55,773 nucleotides of DNA from Thermoprotei archaeon (GCA_003650925.1 QMSP01000009.1:1-55773), one strand, 5' to 3'; numbered from the stretch's first letter, positions 5,098 to 16,214 are shown. Translations and numbers: made by a program. The notes: generated by a model from the letters alone, not told the origin.

Positions 5098-8078
5098 GAC
5101 TCTGTAGGCTTCATAACTCTAAGCTTAACTTTAGTCAAACCGAAGGGTCTTAATATGTACTCATCAGTCCAGTGGGCTATATCCCTGAAGGTCTCAGGCC
5201 CTATGAACTCAGGGTCTCCTCCTCTATAGTGCAGAGGCCCTAGTGCATTCCTCAAGGTTCCTATGAGCAGTATCTCTATCTTGTTCATGCCGCTATGTAC
5301 GTACTCTGTTATGTCAAGACTTTCTCTCCTCAAGATCACTTTACCAGCTTCCTTCTCATTCACATAAACAATGACTAGAGCCGCATCAAGCTTCTCCATG
5401 TCCAACACTACTCTTGCTCCTCTGGGGACTTTAAGCTCAATGTCCTTCTCTAACATAATCTTGCCTACATAGAATGGATAGCCTACTCTGCATAGATCAC
5501 CTAAATCAACTTCTACAGGCTCCTCTACTATTGAGGAGCAGCCTTTAGGTCCTATCTCTACACCGAAATCCCCAAGTATGTAGATGCATTCAATCTCAGG
5601 CTCTAGGTCCACAGTTCCCTCAAGCTCTATGGTATTAAGTCCTTTTCCAACTAAGCCAGATACGTCTATCATCGCGAAGTTCCAGTCGATCCAGTACTTC
5701 TCAGCCTTAGGCTTCACTTCAACTCCATTAACTCTTATCCTATACCTCTCAGGCCTCTCAATGACCAGATAGATCCTCCTATCCTTAAGATCGATCTTGG
5801 ACTCAAACTCAAATCTGAGGGTGAACTTAGTGCCTAATCCCTTCTCGACTATCTCATCATGTGCTCTCCACACTGGCACTACATCACTCCATGCACCTTT
5901 AACTCTGTATCTACAGTAGTCAAGAACTAGCACGTTAGGGTCTAGGCGCTTCAATCTCCAAGCTCTGTTCAGCTCCATACTGTAGGCAGTCACTACCTCA
6001 TCATCTCCTCCTCTACTTATAGGCTCTCCAGGATAAAGCACGTAAAGTCGAGAGCTAACAGGCGCCAGCTCAAGGCTGATCCACGTGCGATTATCCTTGA
6101 CCTCCACCTCCTGATCAATGATTTGGCCTGTGAAGGGATCCCATAGCTCCACATGGTATATGCCCTCAACACCTGCCTTTATGTAGTGTCTTCTGACTCG
6201 ACTAGTATTGACGAGAAACAGTATGAAGCTACCATCTGCTTCCTTGAGGCAGTATAATACATCACCTTCATTATCACCTTCAATGACTACTGGCTTAGGT
6301 ACCTCCTTCAACGCCCTGGCTAGAAGCTCTTTATCAACTCGCTCAATTACTCTAGCCCTGCTCAATAGCCTGCCTATCTCTTCGCTGGGTACTGCATCGA
6401 TCAATGATGGTAAGGGCTTTATCGCTATGACTAATCCTCCTTTCTCGATGTACTCCTTGAGGAGTTTCACAGTTGACCTAGTCAACGTTACGCTTGGAGG
6501 TATTATTACAGCTCTATACCTCGCTTGACCTACTATAAGCTCTGAACCTCTGACATGGGCATACTTGGTCATCAATATCTCATCGCCTAGCTCGAAATCC
6601 ACGTGAAGCGTGAGCAGTGTTCTGAGAAGCCTATAGAATGCATCGTCCAGCTCCCTCACCTTCTCTTCATTAAGAGGTGTATAGAGAGCCCATGCACTGC
6701 CTATGGGATGTATGACCAGGACAGGAGCTATACGTTTACCTTGAGAGAGTACGTAACTGAGCCTAGCGAAGTAATCCTCTATGAGCTTATTGTATCTCCA
6801 CCATGGCTGGCTCCAGTGGAAGTTCAGTCCATAATCTCTTTTCCTACGACCTCTCATGGAGTAGGGTACTAGATGATGATTTAGAAGGTTTACTCCCATT
6901 ACGAGAAGCCAATCTCCAATCCACTTGCGATCTTCAAATGTAGGATAGTTCCCTGTACATCCATATACTTCACATAGAACTCTTTGCCTTCCGAGCTGAT
7001 TAGCTACACTTGCGACTTGTTTTACAGTCAGTAGTCCTCTCCATATCTGCATACCTAAATGGTCTATCCCAGGAATGTGCATGTGCTCATAGTGAGGCAT
7101 GGCAGCGCCTATGCTCAACATCTGTGACAATAGGCTATCCTCATCAAGATAGTGCCCCGTGAACTTGAGGCCATGTTTATCACACCACTCATATATCTGC
7201 CTTGAGAAGGCCTCGATGAATAGGAGAGTTATGGTTCTCCAGAAATCATACCTTGTCTTCATGTAGTTGCCTATGTCAAAGAATAGCTCTGGAAGCTTCG
7301 GCACTATGTCATAGCCATTGAGCTCTCTGAACTTCTCAGGCAGCCTATCAGTCCATGGTATAGCGAAGGGTGGTATTCTAGGACCTCTAGGTGGCATTCT
7401 TTGCCTTCTAGGCGGCCTGCTTAGTGAAAAATTAGGCTCATCAGTGAAGACACCTGGTATTATCTTCCCAAACTCATCTCTGAACCTCTTAGCATATGGT
7501 TCATAAGCTAGCTCAATGAACTTCTTGACTACGCCTGAGTCCAGCAGGTCGACGTAGCTGAGTCCGCAGAACCAAGTTTCTCCCACGGATGCTGTATACT
7601 TGACGAAGTTCAAGTATAGATATCCTGCTCTCTCCTCTCCTCGTTCAGCAGGCTCATAGTCGAGTGGTATGCCTTCAGGGCTCAGCTTACATCTGAAGAC
7701 AGCTAGGACGTCCTCTCCATCATAGGCTCTTCCATCCATTATAAGGACAAGAGCTCTCGCTCTGTACTTAGGGCCTAGGGCAGGAACCAGTCCTCCAGCA
7801 AAGCCAGATGGCCACCAGAGCTCATCATATATCCATATAGTCATGTTATGCTTCCTTGCTTCATCGACAGCTGCCTTAAAGCATTTAAACCACTCCTCGC
7901 TTAGAAAGGTCGTCTTCAGTCCCTCTCTTGCATGGAAGAAGGCCCCTCCATAGCCTCCCTCATTAAGCAATCTGACCTGTCTAGAGATCTCTTCGGGAAT
8001 GAGCTCATCGTTTATTGACCAAAATGGAATTCCTCTATACTCAGGAGGTGGACTCTTGAACAGGTCTTTGCTAGGCAG
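5094..8078 (-). CDS. GH106-like glycosidase (alpha-L-rhamnosidase type), apparent CTG start
   Basis: A large cytosolic-looking glycoside hydrolase of the GH106-like group. An N-terminal barrel carries the blocks PEYRGIPFWSIND, GGYGGAFFHAREGL, IWIYDELWWPSGFAGG, PGVFTDEPNF and FTGHYLDEDS. A Rossmann-like middle part (VIIPPSVTLT) and C-terminal beta-sandwich, carbohydrate-binding-type regions follow. No signal peptide is seen. The first ATG/GTG/TTG codon in frame is the TTG at 7970, but about 36 conserved residues including PEYRGIPFWSIND are encoded upstream, open back to TAA at 8099. The only plausible initiator is CTG at 8078, directly behind a perfect GGTGAT (8087-8082). It is followed by an overlapping FGGY kinase gene. 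Release of L-rhamnose from glycans is the best guess; the substrate is uncertain. Confidence 0.8.
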   Translation of the reverse strand: MPSKDLFKSPPPEYRGIPFWSINDELIPEEISRQVRLLNEGGYGGAFFHAREGLKTTFLSEEWFKCFKAAVDEARKHNMTIWIYDELWWPSGFAGGLVPALGPKYRARALVLIMDGRAYDGEDVLAVFRCKLSPEGIPLDYEPAERGEERAGYLYLNFVKYTASVGETWFCGLSYVDLLDSGVVKKFIELAYEPYAKRFRDEFGKIIPGVFTDEPNFSLSRPPRRQRMPPRGPRIPPFAIPWTDRLPEKFRELNGYDIVPKLPELFFDIGNYMKTRYDFWRTITLLFIEAFSRQIYEWCDKHGLKFTGHYLDEDSLLSQMLSIGAAMPHYEHMHIPGIDHLGMQIWRGLLTVKQVASVANQLGRQRVLCEVYGCTGNYPTFEDRKWIGDWLLVMGVNLLNHHLVPYSMRGRRKRDYGLNFHWSQPWWRYNKLIEDYFARLSYVLSQGKRIAPVLVIHPIGSAWALYTPLNEEKVRELDDAFYRLLRTLLTLHVDFELGDEILMTKYAHVRGSELIVGQARYRAVIIPPSVTLTRSTVKLLKEYIEKGGLVIAIKPLPSLIDAVPSEEIGRLLSRARVIERVDKELLARALKEVPKPVVIEGDNEGDVLYCLKEADGSFILFLVNTSRVRRHYIKAGVEGIYHVELWDPFTGQIIDQEVEVKDNRTWISLELAPVSSRLYVLYPGEPISRGGDDEVVTAYSMELNRAWRLKRLDPNVLVLDYCRYRVKGAWSDVVPVWRAHDEIVEKGLGTKFTLRFEFESKIDLKDRRIYLVIERPERYRIRVNGVEVKPKAEKYWIDWNFAMIDVSGLVGKGLNTIELEGTVDLEPEIECIYILGDFGVEIGPKGCSSIVEEPVEVDLGDLCRVGYPFYVGKIMLEKDIELKVPRGARVVLDMEKLDAALVIVYVNEKEAGKVILRRESLDITEYVHSGMNKIEILLIGTLRNALGPLHYRGGDPEFIGPETFRDIAHWTDEYILRPFGLTKVKLRVMKPTES

Positions 8079-8081
8079 GAT

Positions 8082-8087
8082 ATCACC
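8082..8087 (-). promoter_or_regulatory. Shine-Dalgarno that supports a CTG start
   Basis: GGTGAT on the minus strand matches the 3' end of archaeal 16S rRNA and sits 3 bases before CTG 8078. Other genes in this window use the same hexamer (before 2426, 29367, 37506), with 5 bases of spacing. No ATG, GTG or TTG lies downstream of it in frame until 7970. Confidence 0.5.
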
Positions 8088-8291
8088 AAAATGAACTTAT
8101 AACCAGAAGCTTTTAACCATAAACAGTCATGAATTAGAACTGATAGTATTTCAAATAACCATGACCACTGTGAATATATTTCTCTCAGGTTGTATAACCA
8201 GTGGGTACTGGCTTGGTCAAAGCTGCTGAATACTCGTCATGGTGGTTGATATGGCCGATGTATATTTTACTGAGAATAGGTGAGGCTCTTG

Positions 8292-8720
8292 GTGGTTAGA
8301 GTTAAAGTTCGTCTTGTCAATGAACGTAAGGGGATTTCAAGAACTATAATAGCCCTAGTTGAAGGTGGAGCTGAAAGTCCAGTACCAGTCGTAATGGTGT
8401 CTTCCGAGGATGCTAAGGCGCTAGGCCTAGACCTATCAAGAGATTTTGAACTCATAGAGGTTGAGCTTGCACTTGGCAGAACATGTGAGTTAGTCTCAAG
8501 GAGTAGGTTTAAAGTAGAACTACTTGATGGAGATGACAACGTCTTGTCGAATACTCGTGCATATCTCATAGTAAGTGCTAACCTTAACGAGCCTCTTATG
8601 ACGGACACCACAATAGATGAGCTCGGCATTCAAGTCATCAGCTTCAGGAGAGGCCTTTGGAGGCATGTAAATGACCCCAGCGATTTCATACGAAGGAGTG
8701 CTTTTCCTTTCGCATCATGA
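8292..8720 (+). CDS. Retropepsin-like-fold protein of crenarchaeal type, catalytic Asp replaced
   Basis: A protein of about 142 residues, homologous by eye to the product at 13873-14295. Both have a VRV(K/R)(V/L)RL strand, an ALV-x-x-G-x-E loop, a strand-rich middle, and a C-terminal SD/TD-xx-xx-ELxI-VI-...-W segment ending near RRS/RQS. The layout of strand, loop and hydrophobic strands resembles the single-domain aspartic (retropepsin) fold, in which the loop would be DTG or DSG. Here it reads VEGGAE, so the Asp is absent. I infer a fold relative without ordinary protease activity. The GTG at 8292 is preferred to the GTG at 8280 because a TATATTTTA box at 8260-8268 places transcription start near it. 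Function unknown. Confidence 0.6.
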   Translation: MVRVKVRLVNERKGISRTIIALVEGGAESPVPVVMVSSEDAKALGLDLSRDFELIEVELALGRTCELVSRSRFKVELLDGDDNVLSNTRAYLIVSANLNEPLMTDTTIDELGIQVISFRRGLWRHVNDPSDFIRRSAFPFAS

Positions 8721-8872
8721 CCAGTTCATCCATCGATATTAAAGTCTTCACATTGGTCATGATCAGGATGGTAAGGTTCTGTATTCAATAGCATAAGAGA
8801 TGCATAGCCATTCACATGAGGTCTACGCAATTCCTAAAAAGCCCCTCTCTATAATAGTACTGGTGTCATGCC

Positions 8873-9094
8873 TTGAATGGTGAGGGAACTGAAAAGGTCA
8901 GCGTGGAGATACCTAAGGCGTTATACGACAAGATCAAGGAGTTCATAGATAAGCATGGAGGATTTAAATCCGTTGAAGAGTTCGTGTGCTTTGTACTGGA
9001 ACAGGTGCTTGAGGAAGAGACCACTGAGAGACCTTATACTCCTGAGGAGGAAGAGGAGATCAAAAGGCGACTGAGAGCGCTCGGCTACCTGTAA
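8873..9094 (+). CDS. Ribbon-helix-helix protein with RLRALGYL tail
   Basis: A 73-residue protein. Residues 7-15 (EKVSVEIPK) form the DNA-contacting strand, followed by two helices (ALYDKIKEFIDKHG and SVEEFVCFVLEQVLE) and an acidic linker that ends in KRRLRALGYL. This is a CopG/MetJ-type RHH domain, which dimerises to bind operator DNA. The TTG start is 8 bases after GGTG (8861-8864). It is convergent with another RHH gene whose product ends with almost the same motif. No toxin gene adjoins either, so they look like transcriptional regulators rather than antitoxins. Targets are unknown. Confidence 0.75.
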   Translation: MNGEGTEKVSVEIPKALYDKIKEFIDKHGGFKSVEEFVCFVLEQVLEEETTERPYTPEEEEEIKRRLRALGYL

Positions 9095-9098
9095 TGTG

Positions 9099-9317
9099 CT
9101 AGAGTTCCTCATCCTCAGGCAGATATCCCAGAGCCTTCAGCCTTTTCTTCACATCTTTTGATTCAAGAAGTGGTATATGCTTCCTTATGAGGAACACTAT
9201 GTACTCAGTAGGGCTTCTGAAGCCTGTCCCCTCAAGAGCCTTGGCTAGTCTCTCATAGAGTGGCCTAGGGATTGATATGTTCACGTAATCTCTTCGCTTC
9301 TTCTCCTCCTTAGCCAT
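9099..9317 (-). CDS. Ribbon-helix-helix protein with KRLKALGYL tail
   Basis: A 72-residue RHH protein: strand RDYVNISIPR, helix RPLYERLAKALEGTG, helix SPTEYIVFLIRKHI, then KKRLKALGYLPEDEEL. The ATG at 9317 is chosen over the GTG at 9329 because GGTGAT lies 7 bases upstream of the ATG and would overlap a GTG start. The gene is divergent from nadM, and the interval between them contains a perfect 12-base palindrome (9331-9342) suited to autoregulation. It ends four bases from the convergent RHH gene 8873-9094, which looks like a paralogue. Confidence 0.78.
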   Translation of the reverse strand: MAKEEKKRRDYVNISIPRPLYERLAKALEGTGFRSPTEYIVFLIRKHIPLLESKDVKKRLKALGYLPEDEEL

Positions 9318-9330
9318 TAGCCTTATCACC

Positions 9331-9342
9331 GTGATATATCAC
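9331..9342. promoter_or_regulatory. Palindromic operator candidate between RHH gene and nadM
   Basis: GTGATATATCAC is a perfect 12-base palindrome lying just upstream of the RHH coding start. Its half-site word recurs at 9386-9392 (GTGATAT), before nadM. ACTTACAT at 9341-9348 recurs inverted as ATGTAAGT at 9391-9398. An RHH dimer or tetramer binding both ends could control both divergent genes. The role is inferred from position and symmetry only. Confidence 0.45.
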
Positions 9343-9423
9343 TTACATTTCCATTATTTAACCTTTATGAATGCTTATTAACTCAGTGATATGTAAGTTA
9401 TACTACGTGGCGAGGATAAGAGC

Positions 9424-10017
9424 ATGAGCGGTAAATATCGCCTGGCAGTATACTTGGGGAGATTTCAGCCTCCTCATCAAGGTCACCTTGAGAGCGTGAA
9501 GTTAGGGCTTAGGATTGCAGAGCACGTCGTAATAGGAATTCGTGATACTAAACTTGACTTCAAGGACCCGCTTACGGTGGAGGAGAGGTTTGAATGCTGG
9601 AGAAGGCTCATTAAATGGGCTGAGCTCGATGCTGATAGAGTGAGCTTAGTGAAGGTCCCGGACTTTGGCAAGGGAACCGGCATTCCCTATGAAGACAAGG
9701 CCATATTCACTGATCATCCTCTTCTAAGGTGGGCTAAGGAGGTTGAGAAGTTACTAGGAATGAACCCTGAAGATACGGTGTTCATAGGCAACAAGCCTCC
9801 CATGGTGATCGCCTTCAATCTACTCGGGTACATAGTGTTTCCTGGTCATAGAAACGTGCATAGACTAATCGAGGTCTCAGCCACCGAGCTGAGGAAGTCG
9901 ATAATGTCTAATGATGGGCGATGGAGGAACATACTCCCTTCCCCCGTCGTCAGGTATCTTGATGAGATAAATATTCGTGAAAGGCTCCTTAGGCTACATA
10001 GGCAGGAGGGGCCGTAA
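9424..10017 (+). CDS. nadM: Nicotinamide-nucleotide adenylyltransferase
   Basis: A 197-residue cytidylyltransferase-fold enzyme joining NMN and ATP to give NAD and pyrophosphate, the last step of NAD synthesis. The N-terminal GRFQPPHQGH block contains the HxGH nucleotide-binding motif (residues 18-21). The second signature (I/S)SxTxxR appears as VSATELRKSI near residue 155. The family is normally about 170-185 residues; this one has a slightly longer C-terminus (RERLLRLHRQEGP). It is divergent from an RHH gene across a region with symmetric elements. The cytosolic role is well supported by motif and length. A related archaeal adenylyltransferase with another substrate cannot be fully excluded. 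Confidence 0.88.
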   Translation: MSGKYRLAVYLGRFQPPHQGHLESVKLGLRIAEHVVIGIRDTKLDFKDPLTVEERFECWRRLIKWAELDADRVSLVKVPDFGKGTGIPYEDKAIFTDHPLLRWAKEVEKLLGMNPEDTVFIGNKPPMVIAFNLLGYIVFPGHRNVHRLIEVSATELRKSIMSNDGRWRNILPSPVVRYLDEINIRERLLRLHRQEGP

Positions 10018-10903: not shown

Positions 10904-12268
10904 ATGGTGGGTGATGATATGTCCAGACTCCTAGTCATAGGCATAGATAGTGCTGAGCCCATGCAGATCGAGGAGTGGATTGACCATCTTCCTCACATGA
11001 AGCAACTCTACGATGTCTTCTACACTAGAGTCGAGAGCACAGTTCCTCCTATAACGATTCCCGCCTGGCTCACCGCCTTCAGTGGCCTCAATCCTGGCCA
11101 CTTTGGCCTCTACGACCTGAGGTATAGGCTCAAGAGGAGCTATACGAAGTATGGCCTCTACAGCTATAGGCTTGTTGAGGACGTGGATTTCATATGGAAT
11201 GCCATGAGCAGAAAAGGCTTTAAAGTGGCTCTCTGCTTTGTGCCAGGGACTTATCCACCACCTAAGATCAAGGGCTATGTCATATCAGGCTTCTTCACTC
11301 CTAACGTGGGCAGTAGCTTCACCTGGCCTTTCAGGCTTAAGTATGAAGTGCTTGAAGCTGTTGGAGGGGCTGACAAGTATATAATTGATATACATGATTA
11401 TAGGAGAATGAACCCTAAGCTTCTCTACAAGGCCTTAATCGATAAAGTCGTACATGACTTCAAGGTTATAACCCATGTACTCACCAAGTATGAGTGGGAC
11501 TTGGCCATAGCGGTTCTCATGTCCATAGACAGAGCTCAGCATACTCTATGGCGCTTCTTTGACCGTGAACATCCAAGGTATGTCAAGGATCCAGAGCTTG
11601 AGGAAGGCCTGCTTAACATCTATAGGAAAATAGATGAAGAGCTAGGTAAGCTTCTCGAGAAGCTGCCTAAGGATGTGAAGGTCATAGTCATGAGCGACCA
11701 TGGAGCCAAGAGAATGCACTATCGCATCAACGTCAACGAAGCTCTAGCCGAAGAGGGCCTCTTAAAGCTTAAGGAAAAGCCTGAGAAGCCTATGCCTCTG
11801 GGCCAGCTAGATAAAAGAGGCCTTATAGACTGGGAGAGGACAATTGCATGGTCTTGGGGCGCTTATGTGGCCCAAGTGTGGATAAATCTTGAGGGGAGAG
11901 AGGCCAAGGGATGTGTAAGGAAGGAGGACTATGAAGATACGTGCAGACAAGTTGCAGACTTCCTGCAGAGCATGGAAGGGCCTGATGGAGAGAAGCTTCG
12001 AAATAAGGTATTCTTCAAGTGGGAGATATACAAAGGCTCCAAAGTCGAGATGATGCCTGACATAACCGTCTACTTTGATGACTTACACTATGGAGCTAAT
12101 GAGATGATAGGCTTTAATAGCCTGTATAGCCTTGAGACCTTGAAAGGACCTGATGATAGCAATCATAGTGAGAGGGCTATATTCATGTGTAATGAGAAGC
12201 CATCTATAAGCATAAAAAATCTTGAAGACGTAAGGAAGCTTCTTGAATTACTGATAGAGACTATTTAA
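10904..12268 (+). CDS. Type I phosphodiesterase / nucleotide pyrophosphatase family protein
   Basis: A 454-residue member of the alkaline phosphatase superfamily (type I phosphodiesterase/nucleotide pyrophosphatase). The metal and nucleophile positions are visible: Asp in VIGIDSAEP, the probable nucleophile Thr in PPITIPAW, Asp and His in MSIDRAQHTLW, Asp-His in VIVMSDHGAK, and a late His in NHSERAIF. No signal peptide is present, so it should be cytosolic. Archaeal members are often poorly characterised and may act on phosphodiesters or phosphonates. An alternative start is the ATG at 10919, preceded by GGTGAT. A possible TATA box (TTAAATAGAT, 10853-10862) lies upstream. Confidence 0.85.
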   Translation: MVGDDMSRLLVIGIDSAEPMQIEEWIDHLPHMKQLYDVFYTRVESTVPPITIPAWLTAFSGLNPGHFGLYDLRYRLKRSYTKYGLYSYRLVEDVDFIWNAMSRKGFKVALCFVPGTYPPPKIKGYVISGFFTPNVGSSFTWPFRLKYEVLEAVGGADKYIIDIHDYRRMNPKLLYKALIDKVVHDFKVITHVLTKYEWDLAIAVLMSIDRAQHTLWRFFDREHPRYVKDPELEEGLLNIYRKIDEELGKLLEKLPKDVKVIVMSDHGAKRMHYRINVNEALAEEGLLKLKEKPEKPMPLGQLDKRGLIDWERTIAWSWGAYVAQVWINLEGREAKGCVRKEDYEDTCRQVADFLQSMEGPDGEKLRNKVFFKWEIYKGSKVEMMPDITVYFDDLHYGANEMIGFNSLYSLETLKGPDDSNHSERAIFMCNEKPSISIKNLEDVRKLLELLIETI

Positions 12269-12314
12269 TGGATGAAAACAGTCTGGTTTCTTAGACCACT
12301 AGAGCTATTTGATG

Positions 12315-12461
12315 TTACTCTGGCTCTATTACTACTATAACCTTGATCCTCCTCCCACGGTACTGTCTTAGCTTCTCCTGGTACTCCTTTGGTGGGTAGA
12401 TTACTATTCTGTCCTTCGTGTACTTAACCACAGATGCTTCAAATACATAAGTAATGCTCAT
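12315..12461 (-). CDS. Small AbrB-like protein paired with tnpB (copy 1)
   Basis: A 48-residue protein beginning MSITYVFEASVVKYTKD and containing IYPPKEYQEKL and an IKVIVVIE end strand. Strand, turn with PPKE, short helix and strand resemble half of a swapped-hairpin AbrB/SpoVT domain, where IPKEIREKL is the usual helix motif. A homologous 47-residue gene stands in the same divergent position beside the second tnpB. It therefore seems to belong to the tnpB module and is probably a DNA-binding regulator, comparable to transposon-associated small proteins such as DUF2080. The ATG at 12461 is chosen over the longer start at 12515 because the paralogue begins at the matching residue and an SD (GGTGGCT) precedes it. 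Confidence 0.65.
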   Translation of the reverse strand: MSITYVFEASVVKYTKDRIVIYPPKEYQEKLRQYRGRRIKVIVVIEPE

Positions 12462-12539
12462 ATCTAGCCACCATATGTATAAATAGCTAGAAAAACATAA
12501 ATGACTTTCTAGCATTAACTACTACATGGTGGCTGGGGG
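12462..12539. promoter_or_regulatory. Divergent promoter with inverted repeats, tnpB locus 1
   Basis: The 78-base interval carries AGCCACCAT (12466-12474) mirrored by ATGGTGGCT (12526-12534). Inside it GCTAGAAA (12486-12493) is mirrored by TTTCTAGC (12506-12513); both pairs centre near 12500. The outer arms include the SD sequences of the two divergent genes, each 5-6 bases from its start codon. The centre is A/T-rich and could serve as the TATA region in both directions. Confidence 0.5.
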
Positions 12540-12590
12540 ATGAGGGTTAGAGTAACCGCTAGGGTCAAGGCGGTTACTCCTAATCCCCAG
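12531..12590 (+). repeat. Nested inverted repeat over the start of tnpB copy 1
   Basis: A perfect 10-base inverted repeat, GAGTAACCGC (12550-12559) with GCGGTTACTC (12570-12579), lies within codons 4-14 of tnpB. An outer pair, GGCTGGGG at 12531-12538 with CCCCAGCC at about 12586-12593, brackets it, so an RNA hairpin would bury both SD and start codon. The second tnpB has an unrelated palindrome at the same place. Confidence 0.6.
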
Positions 12591-13760
12591 CCTATATTAT
12601 CTTTCCTGAAAGCCTACCGTGACTGGACACAGTACGTAGTAGACCAGATATGGGGCTTAGACCATATTCCTTCAATGAAAGAACTACACCGCAGGTTCTA
12701 CAAGTTATTAAGAAAGCAGGGATTTCGAGCACATCACTGCCATAAGATAGAGCGTAGGGCTAGAGAAGTTGTTAAAGCAACCAAGAAGAATAACGGAAGT
12801 AAACCAGTATTGAGAAAACTAACGGCTAGACTTGACTATCAAGATTACAAGCTAGACGTAAATAGTAAAACGTTGAGAATAGCTGTCCTCAATAATGAGT
12901 GGATTGAGCTAAAGCTACAATGGTATAGCTATCTAGATAAATACTTTAATGGTGAGTGGAAACTTAAGGAAATTCTCGTTAGCTACAGGGTTGACAATAT
13001 ATGGGTTTACTTCACGTTCGAGAAGGAGGTAGTGTTCAAACAGCCAAGAACTATTATGGGTATAGACATTAACTTCGATAATATAACTTACACCATAATT
13101 GATTTACGAGGCAACCTAGTAACTATGGGTGCCATACCGTTCAATGGGTTGAAGAGGGCATTAGCATATAAGGTAATTGTGGAGAAAATTCAGAGGAAAT
13201 ACTCTAGGAGATGGAGATATGTTAAAGGAATAAGGGAAGCTATTAGAAAACACAGTAGGAGAGCTAGGAATATTCTCTTGGACTCATGTCATTTCATTTC
13301 TAGGAAGGTAGCAGAGATAGCTAAGGAGTATAATGCTATGATAGTATTGGAAGACTTGAATAAGCTTAGAGAAAGAGTAAATGGTACTAAGAAGTTTAAC
13401 AAAAAGTTATCATTATGGACTTATCATAGAATACAGTCATACATTCATTACAAAGCACTAATTGAAGGACTGCCAATAACCTATGTGAGCCCAAGAAATA
13501 CATCCAAAACATCACCTTTAGGGGGAGAACTGAAGTTCATTAACTATAAGTGGATCATATTACCAAATGGACATGTTGTTACTAGGGATATTGTTGCCTC
13601 ATGGAACCTAGCATTAAGAGGGCTTAAACTCCTTACCCGAGATGTGGGGAGCTGTGGTTTCATGGACTCCCTGAATGCCCCTGACCAGATGCAAACCCAA
13701 GAAGGGATGAGGGAGAAGCCCGTGCAGGTATCCAAAATACTCATAGTTACCAAAAGATGA
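12540..13760 (+). CDS. tnpB: TnpB RNA-guided nuclease, zinc finger lost
   Basis: A 406-residue TnpB of the IS200/IS605 (IS1341-like) group. The RuvC acidic residues are all present: D176 in MGIDIN, E271 in VLEDLN and D350 in VTRDIVASWN. The region that is normally a CxxC...CxxC zinc ribbon instead reads TSPLGGEL...ILPNGHV, so all four cysteines are gone while the flanking residues remain; such forms are found in some crenarchaeal TnpB lineages. TnpB proteins are RNA-guided DNA nucleases using a guide RNA made from the element's right end. No tnpA transposase is nearby, so movement would need help in trans. A divergent small AbrB-like gene lies 78 bases upstream. Confidence 0.88.
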   Translation: MRVRVTARVKAVTPNPQPILSFLKAYRDWTQYVVDQIWGLDHIPSMKELHRRFYKLLRKQGFRAHHCHKIERRAREVVKATKKNNGSKPVLRKLTARLDYQDYKLDVNSKTLRIAVLNNEWIELKLQWYSYLDKYFNGEWKLKEILVSYRVDNIWVYFTFEKEVVFKQPRTIMGIDINFDNITYTIIDLRGNLVTMGAIPFNGLKRALAYKVIVEKIQRKYSRRWRYVKGIREAIRKHSRRARNILLDSCHFISRKVAEIAKEYNAMIVLEDLNKLRERVNGTKKFNKKLSLWTYHRIQSYIHYKALIEGLPITYVSPRNTSKTSPLGGELKFINYKWIILPNGHVVTRDIVASWNLALRGLKLLTRDVGSCGFMDSLNAPDQMQTQEGMREKPVQVSKILIVTKR

Positions 13761-13795
13761 TGCACGGGCAACCACTAAAACCTTATTACAATAAG
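13640..13795 (+). ncRNA. Predicted omega-RNA/right-end structure of tnpB copy 1
   Basis: TnpB guide RNAs overlap the 3' end of the gene and run into the element's right end. Here GGGGAGC...GGACTCCC (about 13647-13673) can pair. A perfect 9-base stem GCCCGTGCA (13718-13726) / TGCACGGGC (13761-13769) spans the stop codon, followed by CTTATT-AC-AATAAG (13782-13795). The scaffold end, and so the guide start, is probably between 13770 and 13800. Boundaries are estimates. Confidence 0.45.
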
Positions 13796-13872
13796 TTGAG
13801 CTTTTATATTGATGACTGTTGCTAAGAAGGTTAAGCGCATTGGTAAGATGAGACTCATCAGGGTGTATATCC

Positions 13873-14295
13873 TTGGGAGTAAGGGTAAGATTGAGATTAA
13901 GGAGTACTTCAAAAGAAGTGCAAACCAGCGCTCTGGTGAATAGTGGGTATGAAACTGAAGAGCCTGAGATAATAATTCCAATGGCTTTAGCCAGAGTATT
14001 GGAGCTTAGCCCTTCAAGTACAGTATCTTCATATCTGGTAGCAGGTGGCTCTCATCTCTCAGCCATAAGAGCTAACGAAATGCTCAAGGTCTCTATAATG
14101 CTTGAGGACAGGGCTACTAATGAAGTAGATGCTGTTCCCATCATAGTCCCTGGAGAGAATGAGGTGATTATAAGCGATAGACTAGCTCATGAATTAGACA
14201 TAGTGATACTGGATACATTCAACGGAGAATGGTGTCTAAGAGATGAGCTGGGCAGGAAAGTAAGACAGAGCACAGCACCACAGTATTGGCAATAG
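13873..14295 (+). CDS. Retropepsin-like-fold protein (crenarchaeal family), second copy
   Basis: A 140-residue homologue of the 8292-8720 product. It opens with VRVRLRLRS, has the loop ALVNSGYETEEPE where a retropepsin would show DSG or DTG, then the strand pair LLS...YLVAGGS. It closes with IISDRLAHELDIVILD, GEWCLRDELG and PQYW. With Asn in place of Asp it is unlikely to be an ordinary aspartic protease. The TTG start is preceded by GGTG at 13861-13864. It sits between the two tnpB loci with no visible operon partner. Function unknown; the fold assignment is an inference from motif spacing. Confidence 0.62.
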   Translation: MGVRVRLRLRSTSKEVQTSALVNSGYETEEPEIIIPMALARVLELSPSSTVSSYLVAGGSHLSAIRANEMLKVSIMLEDRATNEVDAVPIIVPGENEVIISDRLAHELDIVILDTFNGEWCLRDELGRKVRQSTAPQYWQ

Positions 14296-14327
14296 CCTTA
14301 GCTTGGGCTTAATTACTTCCAATTATT

Positions 14328-14471
14328 TTAATCACTTTCCTTGATTACTATTACCTTTACTTTCTCTCCATGTAGCTTCTTCAACTTTTCCTGATATTCC
14401 TTTGGAGGATATATCAAGTACTTCTCACCAGTCTTAACAACCTTCGCCTCGAAGACGTATATAAACCCCAC
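14328..14471 (-). CDS. Small AbrB-like protein paired with tnpB (copy 2)
   Basis: A 47-residue protein with the segments GFIYVFEAKVVKTG, LIYPPKEYQEKL, KKLHGEKVKV and IVIKESD. It is clearly paralogous to the 12315-12461 product, sharing YVFEA, VVK, IYPPKEYQEKL and KVIV. The GTG start at 14471 follows an SD GGTGAAT on the minus strand. It lies 76 bases from the divergent tnpB start, against 78 in copy 1. The swapped-hairpin AbrB-like reading is an inference; the repeated association with tnpB is directly visible. Confidence 0.65.
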   Translation of the reverse strand: MGFIYVFEAKVVKTGEKYLIYPPKEYQEKLKKLHGEKVKVIVIKESD

Positions 14472-14547
14472 CTAAATTCACCGTTTATATTTTGAACACT
14501 AAAGCTTATAAATCTGTATACTGTTAACACTTATCGGTGAATACCCG
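14472..14547. promoter_or_regulatory. Divergent promoter with inverted repeats, tnpB locus 2
   Basis: ATTCACCG (14476-14483) is mirrored by CGGTGAAT (14535-14542), with arms 5 bases upstream of each start codon exactly as in locus 1 but with another sequence. A TTATAA palindrome at 14507-14512 lies at the exact centre (14509.5) and could be a shared bidirectional TATA box. The arms include the SDs of both genes. Confidence 0.5.
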
Positions 14548-15783
14548 ATGAGGGCGTCTATCACCCGAGCTAATCGGGTGATGCCCGAGGGAGTTTACTA
14601 TAGGACATTAAAAGCAAGAGCAGAGATTATTGAAGGAAATATTAATGATTTGCTGTGGGATTTAACGGTTTACAAGTATGCACTTCAGAAATGTATAGAA
14701 GCTTTATGGGAATTAGATAAAATCCCAAAGAAGAGCCAAGTGCATCAACTATTCTATCCGATGCTGAGGGATCATGGTTTTAGAGCACATGTAGCTAGGA
14801 ATATCTATTCAACAGCACTAGCCTTAGTGAAATCAGCTAAGGAAAATAATGGTTCTAAACCGGTTGTGAAGAAAATGACTGCTAGACTTGACTACCAAGA
14901 TGCTAAGGTAGACATGGATAGCCATGTTGTGAAAGTGATTCTTAGAGACAAGTGGTATACTCTGAAGATTATTCATAAGAAGGACTTCATCGAGAAGTTT
15001 AAGGGTTTGAAGTGGAAGGAGGTTCACGTAAAGTATTGCAATGGAGTATTATATGTCAGCATAATATTTGTGATTAGATACAAGCCATACGTTCCTAGAG
15101 GTGCTATAGGTTTAGATATCAATTTGAGGCAGATAACTACCTATGATGGTTCAAATGTTAGGAGATATAGGACAAGATTCATTGACGCATTGAGCAAAAG
15201 AGCTAGAGCTGAAGAATTACAGAGGAAGCATCCTAGAAGGTGGAGGTATAATAAAAGAATCCTGAGTAGAGTTAGAGCACTACATAGGAAGGCAAGGAAC
15301 ATCGTGCTTGATTGGTGTAGGAAGTCCGCTAAATACATAGTCCTTAAAGCTAAGAAGTATGGCTATGCAATTGCTTTAGAGGATTTAACAAACTTACGTG
15401 AAAACATTGTTGAGAAAGAGGGTGTTTTTGTTTGGAAGCTATCCATGTTTACCTACAGGAAACTTCAAGAAGCAATAATATCGAAAACCATCGAGCACAA
15501 CGTGCCCGTAATCCTCGTAAACCCAAGAAACACTTCAACTACATGCCCTAGATGCGGAACAAAATTATCTTACACCTATAGGTTGGCAATATGCAGGAAA
15601 TGCAATTTCAAAGCTGATAGGGATAAAATTGGTGCTATAAATATTTGGCTAAGGTCTCTTTATGTGTATGCGGGGGAGCATGGGTCTACCCTAAGTGCTC
15701 CCGCTGTGAAGGATGAAGCCCGACAGAGCGGGAGAATAAAGGATGAGGGGATGAAGATAATGATTAAAAGTGTTCAAAAGTAA
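14548..15783 (+). CDS. tnpB: TnpB RNA-guided nuclease with intact zinc finger
   Basis: A 411-residue TnpB. RuvC residues are D190 (IGLDIN), E278 (ALEDLT) and D359 (ADRDKIGAIN). The zinc ribbon is intact with C333, C336, C349 and C352 (TTCPRCG, ICRKCNF). It is only distantly related to the copy at 12540, so the two are separate element families and not a recent duplication. It is divergent from a small AbrB-like gene and has no tnpA partner. An internal ATG at 14581 is a possible alternative start. As a family it cuts DNA guided by an RNA from its own 3' end and promotes retention of the element. Confidence 0.9.
   Translation: MRASITRANRVMPEGVYYRTLKARAEIIEGNINDLLWDLTVYKYALQKCIEALWELDKIPKKSQVHQLFYPMLRDHGFRAHVARNIYSTALALVKSAKENNGSKPVVKKMTARLDYQDAKVDMDSHVVKVILRDKWYTLKIIHKKDFIEKFKGLKWKEVHVKYCNGVLYVSIIFVIRYKPYVPRGAIGLDINLRQITTYDGSNVRRYRTRFIDALSKRARAEELQRKHPRRWRYNKRILSRVRALHRKARNIVLDWCRKSAKYIVLKAKKYGYAIALEDLTNLRENIVEKEGVFVWKLSMFTYRKLQEAIISKTIEHNVPVILVNPRNTSTTCPRCGTKLSYTYRLAICRKCNFKADRDKIGAINIWLRSLYVYAGEHGSTLSAPAVKDEARQSGRIKDEGMKIMIKSVQK
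14560..14582 (+). repeat. Perfect hairpin inside the start of tnpB copy 2
   Basis: ATCACCCGA (14560-14568) and TCGGGTGAT (14574-14582) form a 9-base stem with a GCTAA loop at codons 5-12. Related CCCGA/TCGGG words at 14533-14549 and 14583-14590 allow alternative pairings, including one over the start codon (ATCGG 14533-14537 with CCGAT 14545-14549). This recalls an attenuator-like switch. Confidence 0.6.
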
Positions 15784-15795
15784 CTAAAAGTATCA
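15665..15795 (+). ncRNA. Predicted omega-RNA/right-end structure of tnpB copy 2
   Basis: The 3' end of tnpB contains GGGAGCA (about 15674-15680) pairing with TGCTCCC (about 15696-15702), with an inner GGG-TCTA-CCC. CTCCCGCT then pairs with AGCGGGAG about 25 bases later. Such stacked stems at the tnpB 3' end are the usual signature of the guide-RNA scaffold. The scaffold end and guide start are not identifiable from one copy. Confidence 0.5.
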
Positions 15796-15809
15796 TTTAG
15801 ACCTGAACC

Positions 15810-16214
15810 CTACTTGAGCTCCTTGCTGAGATTGAAAGGCTTTCCCTCCTTAAGCACTTTCCCAGGTATTTTATCCTTATACTTTCTCAGGAAGGATAGA
15901 TCCTCCTCCTCATCCCTGAGCTCGTCAGGAAGCATCCTTGGTATCTCCTCCTCAATTGGATACCATCGCTTACACCTAGGGCATATCAATATGCCTGCGT
16001 CAACCTCTCGCTTGAAGCACTCCTCACACTTTATGTCCTCCCTTCCCAGCTCTTTGGTATACTTGGCTAGGAAACCACAGTACAGCTCACAGACAGGCCT
16101 TTTATCAGTTGGAGGCTCTCTTTTCTCATATCTATTCTCCTTGAACACCTTCAGTGTGAGAGGAAAATGTTTACACATGGGGCAGGCTAGGAGGTCTAGT
16201 AGCCTGTACTTCAT
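15810..16214 (-). CDS. Trm112 family zinc-binding protein
   Basis: A 134-residue Trm112-like protein. It starts MKYRLLDLLACPMCKHFPL, the classic LLxxLxCPxC opening, and has the second zinc pair in LICPRCKRWYPIEEEIPRMLP. Additional cysteines (CELYCGF, CEECF) sit in the insert. In archaea and eukaryotes Trm112 is an activating subunit for several methyltransferases acting on tRNA, rRNA and release factors. The ATG follows AGGGGAG. It is transcribed toward the tnpB locus. Candidate partner methyltransferases in this window lie at 49794 and 50528, but any pairing is speculative. Confidence 0.88.
   Translation of the reverse strand: MKYRLLDLLACPMCKHFPLTLKVFKENRYEKREPPTDKRPVCELYCGFLAKYTKELGREDIKCEECFKREVDAGILICPRCKRWYPIEEEIPRMLPDELRDEEEDLSFLRKYKDKIPGKVLKEGKPFNLSKELK

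Follow-up and report, generated by a model that had tools for sequence, protein, structure and literature searches.

Two Mobile Elements with Divergent Gene Pairs

The window, i.e., the whole stretch of 55,773 nucleotides that was analysed, belongs to a 2.14-Mb thermoproteotal genome of 81 contigs and contains two mobile elements arranged nearly in tandem. Each of them carries a tnpB gene and, on the opposite strand, a very small gene. The features are as follows, those termed operators being proposed ones:

12259..13775, + strand: element 1, from left end GACTATT... to right end ...GGGCAACCAC; the ends recur in homologous copies with other flanks, e.g., L033 (C3, same genome), L063, L065, L068, L096 and L102
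12315..12461, - strand: small gene 1, putative AbrB/MazE-like protein of 48 aa, ATG start
12486..12513: proposed operator 1, dyad GCTAGAAA-AACATAAATGAC-TTTCTAGC over the TATA region
12540..13760, + strand: tnpB1, 406 aa; RuvC D-E-D present, zinc-ribbon cysteines missing; NF040570 106.6 bits
12552..12577, + strand: stem GTAACCGC...GCGGTTAC in the first codons of the tnpB1 mRNA
14294..15810, + strand: element 2, from left end AGCC(TTAGC...) to right end ...GACCTGAACCC; the ends match copies L031, L087, L089 and L093, with a partial match to the IS607 tnpA element
14328..14471, - strand: small gene 2, putative AbrB/MazE-like protein of 47 aa, GTG start
14494..14521: proposed operator 2, TATA box (CTTATAAA) and imperfect dyad GAACAC...GTATAC; weak, with 4/6 positions matched
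14548..15783, + strand: tnpB2, 411 aa; RuvC D-E-D and zinc ribbon intact; NF040570 104.3 bits
14552..14586, + strand: two-helix stem-loop in codons 2-13 of the tnpB2 mRNA

The start-to-start gaps from the small genes to the tnpB ATG codons (12540 and 14548) are 78 and 76 nt, in full agreement with the first-pass annotation, which had placed a divergent gene of 47-48 aa at 76-78 bases from each tnpB. Identity is 56% over 48 residues between the two small proteins and 36% between TnpB1 and TnpB2. The longest ORF of small gene 1 reaches an upstream ATG at 12515 (66 aa), but the start at 12461 is preferred on account of the family alignment, the GGTG ribosome-binding motif and the position of the operator. 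As judged by eye, a GGTG motif is located about 7-10 nt upstream of most start codons, both of the small gene and of tnpB.

Two neighboring ORFs terminate at the element boundaries. Element 1 includes in its left end the final codons and the stop (12259-12268) of a phosphodiesterase-like ORF (10904-12268), whose C-terminus was probably replaced by the insertion. A 140-aa ORF (13873-14295) has a weak match to clan AA aspartic proteases, and its end coincides with the left end of element 2, whose insertion may have cut it.

Conservation of the Small Gene Beside tnpB

A class-wide search (81 genomes) together with a scan of 84,980 species genomes yielded 55 distinct strong relatives of the small protein, 48 of which are divergent to an adjoining tnpB ORF or large tnpB fragment, the loci coming mostly from metagenome assemblies and related copies not being fully independent. 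The gap between the small gene and the likely tnpB start is mostly about 65-90 nt in these strong relatives. Among the other seven, L091 faces a 42-residue tnpB remnant, L066 and L073 are cut by a contig end, and no tnpB was detectable beside L081, L083, L092 and L104. In the source genome itself the small protein gives five strong matches and a weak one, and all five strong matches are divergent to tnpB. The matches come from Thermoproteota, with the exception of one contig filed as Woesearchaeota that may be misbinned, and a search of viral contigs and plasmids returned no relatives. L076 and L077 are 6144-bp stretches of identical sequence that run in opposite directions on the same 49-kb contig, which may reflect a large inverted repeat or an artefact of assembly.

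The dN/dS values of close small-gene pairs are mostly 0.00-0.23; the outlying pairs (L074/L075, 1.5; L062/L075, 0.38) both compare different subfamilies. By this measure the small gene is under purifying selection, and the reading as a chance ORF was rejected on the basis of dN/dS and family size. The claim that the pairing exceeds chance is upheld by both the adjacency counts and the coding constraint, and a preponderance of relatives away from tnpB was not seen.

Weaker relatives of the small protein (~30 bits) are found upstream of other TnpB-like genes on the same strand. In this second, co-directional architecture, which is independent of the divergent one, the small gene comes first and mostly overlaps the TnpB-like start by about 20-45 nt. 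A separate TnpB-like family is located behind such overlapping small AbrB-like genes (L023 2997-4210, on G000 contig C8; L043, L045, L046, L050, L051 and L054); it has no Pfam match, and its TIGR01765 match is below the cut-off.

A Single Clade of TnpB Proteins

In a tree with three TnpBs as the outgroup, the TnpBs accompanied by a small gene form one clade (100/100) together with that of the tnpA-bearing element C3b and L113, a tnpB with neither neighbour seen. This clade is divided into two subclades, and the distances among small proteins track those among TnpBs (Mantel r=0.51). Given one TnpB clade and a small protein that follows it, a single ancestral pairing suffices for both window elements and an independent double acquisition is not needed; judging from these sequence relationships, the two pairings are probably not independent. 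The first-pass annotation had argued the opposite, on the grounds that the two TnpBs belong to different lineages. While they do fall in two sister subclades, calling these different lineages was an overstatement, and the independence drawn from it does not hold. The loss of the zinc ribbon that it ascribed to one TnpB is real, with the four cysteines missing in TnpB1 and in its entire subclade. The RuvC D-E-D residues are intact in all full-length members, and the NF040570 scores of both window TnpBs are above the cut-off. A TldR-like dead TnpB was rejected because of the intact D-E-D site.

The beginning of tnpB encodes a conserved RNA structure in both subclades. In the tnpB2-type subclade, to which the pair counts are restricted, 99.1% of the cells of the start stem-loop are paired over 22 sequences and 40 cells have changed on both sides, giving a covariation score of 0.53 versus 0.20 for shuffled and at most 0.08 for slid alignments; the tnpB1-type stem was seen by eye in its entire subclade. 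The stem-loop does not depend on the presence of the small gene, since the tnpA-bearing IS607 relative has it as well, and it may represent a second, translational control or a TnpB-binding site.

Element Ends and the Relationship to IS607

Copies located in different flanks (L087/L089/L090, L057/L058, L036/L047 and L065/L068) have about 1.5 kb in common, spanning from 25-80 bp past the small gene stop to just beyond tnpB, which places the small gene inside the mobile element. The ends differ by TnpB subclade, being AGCC|GT... and ...GAACCC in the first and GACTATT... and ...GGGCAACCAC in the second, to which element 1 belongs. Right ends are conserved among copies, and an Rfam search gave no match. 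In one copy (L090), tnpB is internally deleted and the small gene and ends are intact, leaving a MITE-like derivative of ~1 kb.

The same genome harbors the tnpA-bearing IS607-type element C3b (L020, about 7857-9885). Its TnpA is of the IS607 type (HTH_17 plus resolvase), and its tnpB is split by a frame change and groups within the first TnpB subclade. The left end AGCCGTAGCAAAGTTTATATGATTGTATATG and the right end AAAGAGGTGAACCC of C3b are nearly identical to the ends of several small-gene elements; this agreement at both ends applies to the first TnpB subclade, whereas the ends of element 1 differ. A serine recombinase tnpA is absent from both window elements. As C3b-like ends are kept and tnpA is missing, part of the family at least looks like tnpA-less IS607-type elements. 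CC adjoins both ends of the IS607-like small-gene elements, which can be compared with the GG overlap of IS607 (PMC4058570).

Predicted Fold of the Small Protein

The monomer model contains strands at residues 10-14 and 18-22 followed by a helix at residues 25-32 (pLDDT 87), and this predicted beta-beta-helix order fits the expectation for MazE/AbrB proteins. The small proteins of the window match no Pfam or NCBIfam family, and their co-directional relatives give matches to TIGR01439 (E=7e-4) and PF04014 (E=0.014-0.058), all below the cut-off. A Foldseek search of the PDB with the monomer gave nothing significant (best E 2.4), MazE and VapB chains appearing among many sub-threshold matches, and a sequence search of the PDB returned nothing. 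The AbrB-like fold that had been proposed at first pass is moderately supported, by the profile matches of the relatives and the strand-strand-helix order and not by Foldseek, and an AbrB-like small protein is likely but unproven. In the AbrB-type protein Sso7c4, DNA contacts include R11 and R22 (PMC5222340); by position, residues 10-21 of the small protein would correspond to the AbrB-type DNA-contact region.

A Dyad Centered on the TATA Box

Many copies carry an inverted repeat between the two genes whose center lies on the TATA core or at most 2 bases off. Examples are the perfect 28-30 bp palindrome of L058, AGAGTGTAAA...TTTGCACTCT in L087 and GCTAGAAA...TTTCTAGC in window copy 1. The arms vary by lineage yet remain matched within each dyad: in 28 representatives, own arms match at 138/224 positions, versus 110.9 +/- 5.5 (maximum 131) when the right arms were shuffled among them 3000 times. 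At least 6/8 arm matches are found in 9/20 non-redundant divergent promoters and in 7/11 co-directional ones, versus 5/203 other TTATAA sites from the same sequences (Fisher 8e-8 and 6e-8, respectively), with the register fixed on the TATA core, the shift and arm offsets picked after seeing the data, and the controls given equal freedom except for the choice of offset. A strong dyad is present in roughly half of the divergent promoters; 11/20 are below 6/8, with a dyad that is weak, as in window copy 2, or absent. An unrestricted per-locus search is noisy (total 402 versus a shuffle maximum of 372), with few loci significant alone. Because most of the co-directional promoters also carry a TATA-centered dyad, the dyad is linked to the small gene and not to the divergent layout. 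A single strand of dyad 1 folds (z=-4.67) and that of dyad 2 does not; a role as a terminal transposition hairpin is unlikely given the position over the TATA box in the element interior.

The five copies in the source genome carry five different arm sequences. Across 35 representatives, residues 10-21 of the small protein, predicted to form a beta-hairpin, covary with the operator arms once the distances among TnpBs are taken into account (partial Mantel r=0.36, P=2e-4), and the rest of the protein does so less (r=0.16, P=0.003), these P values being approximate, as permutation does not fully remove relatedness. In part of the family, a TATA-centered dyad with covarying arms suggests an operator at the gene's own promoter, as is typical of AbrB-type regulators. 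It had been put forward that the small protein may repress tnpB, and this proposal is now backed by a dyad that is centered on the TATA box and covaries with the protein.

A Model for Autorepression and Its Alternatives

What the sequences show directly are the pairing, the membership in the element, the coding constraint, the shared ends and, for part of the family, the dyad and its covariation. The reading that we favor, with a probability of about 0.72, is that the small gene encodes an element-borne autorepressor, a minimal AbrB/MazE-like protein that acts on a symmetric divergent promoter as a brake on tnpB. The small protein would act as a homodimeric DNA-binding protein, and the dimer would occupy the dyad, whose arms lie on either side of the only TATA box between the divergent genes. 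Once bound, it would keep TBP/TFB from the near-palindromic TATA box, such that tnpB and the small gene would be repressed together. The RNA-guided nuclease is thus predicted to be held at a low, self-limiting level. Both binding and repression are deduced here from sequence. In addition, tnpA-less elements with kept ends may be mobilised in trans by an IS607 TnpA, at least in the case of some elements.

An extension of this model, which we rate slightly below even odds, is that the elements form 'immunity groups' like those of lambdoid phages, in which the repressor hairpin and the operator arms would be changed together in each lineage, avoiding cross-silencing. If so, TnpB expression would be under element-specific, orthogonal control and several elements could coexist per genome.

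The best placed of the alternatives, even so an unlikely one, is that the small protein works like an antitoxin, binding and restraining TnpB itself, with operator binding being secondary, as in AbrB-type antitoxins. The co-directional loci fit this scheme, as a small gene that comes first and overlaps the nuclease gene by ~20-45 nt is what antitoxin-toxin operons display, and MazE is among the nearest sequence families. On the other hand, 47-50 aa leave scant room for the C-terminal toxin-binding tail of MazE/VapB, and residues 10-21 covary with the operator, the part of the element with which they were compared.

As a further alternative, the small protein might be an accessory transposition factor, replacing the lost tnpA in end binding or excision control. 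In its favor, the small gene occupies the position that tnpA has in the IS607 relative, and these elements have retained their ends. However, the dyads are located deep in the element, where they cover the intergenic TATA box, no matching dyads were seen by eye at the element ends, the same promoter dyad accompanies the small genes that precede other TnpB-like genes in the co-directional set, and the small protein is without a recombinase domain; we consider this role improbable. Equally improbable is a role in activation or DNA architecture of the kind of Sso7c4, an AbrB-like crenarchaeal protein that bends and bridges DNA (PMC5222340), since the site covers the TATA box itself, where a dimer, once bound, would be expected to obstruct TBP/TFB and not to assist them.

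Comparison with Known Systems

An open-access literature search, with most subscription papers outside its reach, found no paper linking TnpB with AbrB or SpoVT regulators. An element-encoded dedicated repressor would provide a concrete candidate for the means by which hosts are spared damage from TnpB nucleases. The predicted operator system is small (a protein of about 50 residues and a 30-bp DNA site), and the family would offer repressors and operators that are naturally matched in hyperthermophiles, lineage by lineage, as well as a case of IS607-type elements without tnpA that still keep their ends and nuclease.

IS607 elements, with a serine recombinase tnpA and tnpB, have TnpBs of the same clade, and some small-gene elements share the C3b ends; unlike them, small-gene elements have no tnpA and carry a divergent gene of 47-50 aa beside tnpB instead. 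IS1341-type elements likewise consist of tnpB and a right end without a transposase gene, but small-gene elements add a regulator-like gene and a shared divergent promoter and, in part of the family at least, have IS607-type ends. TldRs are nuclease-dead, TnpB-like RNA-guided repressors, and they too link regulation to tnpB; here, in contrast, TnpB retains D-E-D and regulation would fall to a small protein distinct from TnpB. SpoVT-AbrB regulators, Sso7c4 included, resemble the small protein in size, strand-strand-helix order, the weak profile matches of its relatives and the proposed dimer on a dyad. It differs from them in scoring below every curated cut-off, in being located beside tnpB and not beside a toxin, and in its lack of a C-terminal extension. 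The nearest working analogy is provided by the anti-CRISPR-associated (Aca) autorepressors and by archaeal viral promoters whose inverted repeats lie over the BRE (PMC11065993): in both cases a small mobile-element repressor would act on its own gene and on a partner gene, at core promoters overlaid by an inverted repeat, but the proteins are unrelated, and the partner of the small gene is an RNA-guided nuclease and not an anti-defence gene.
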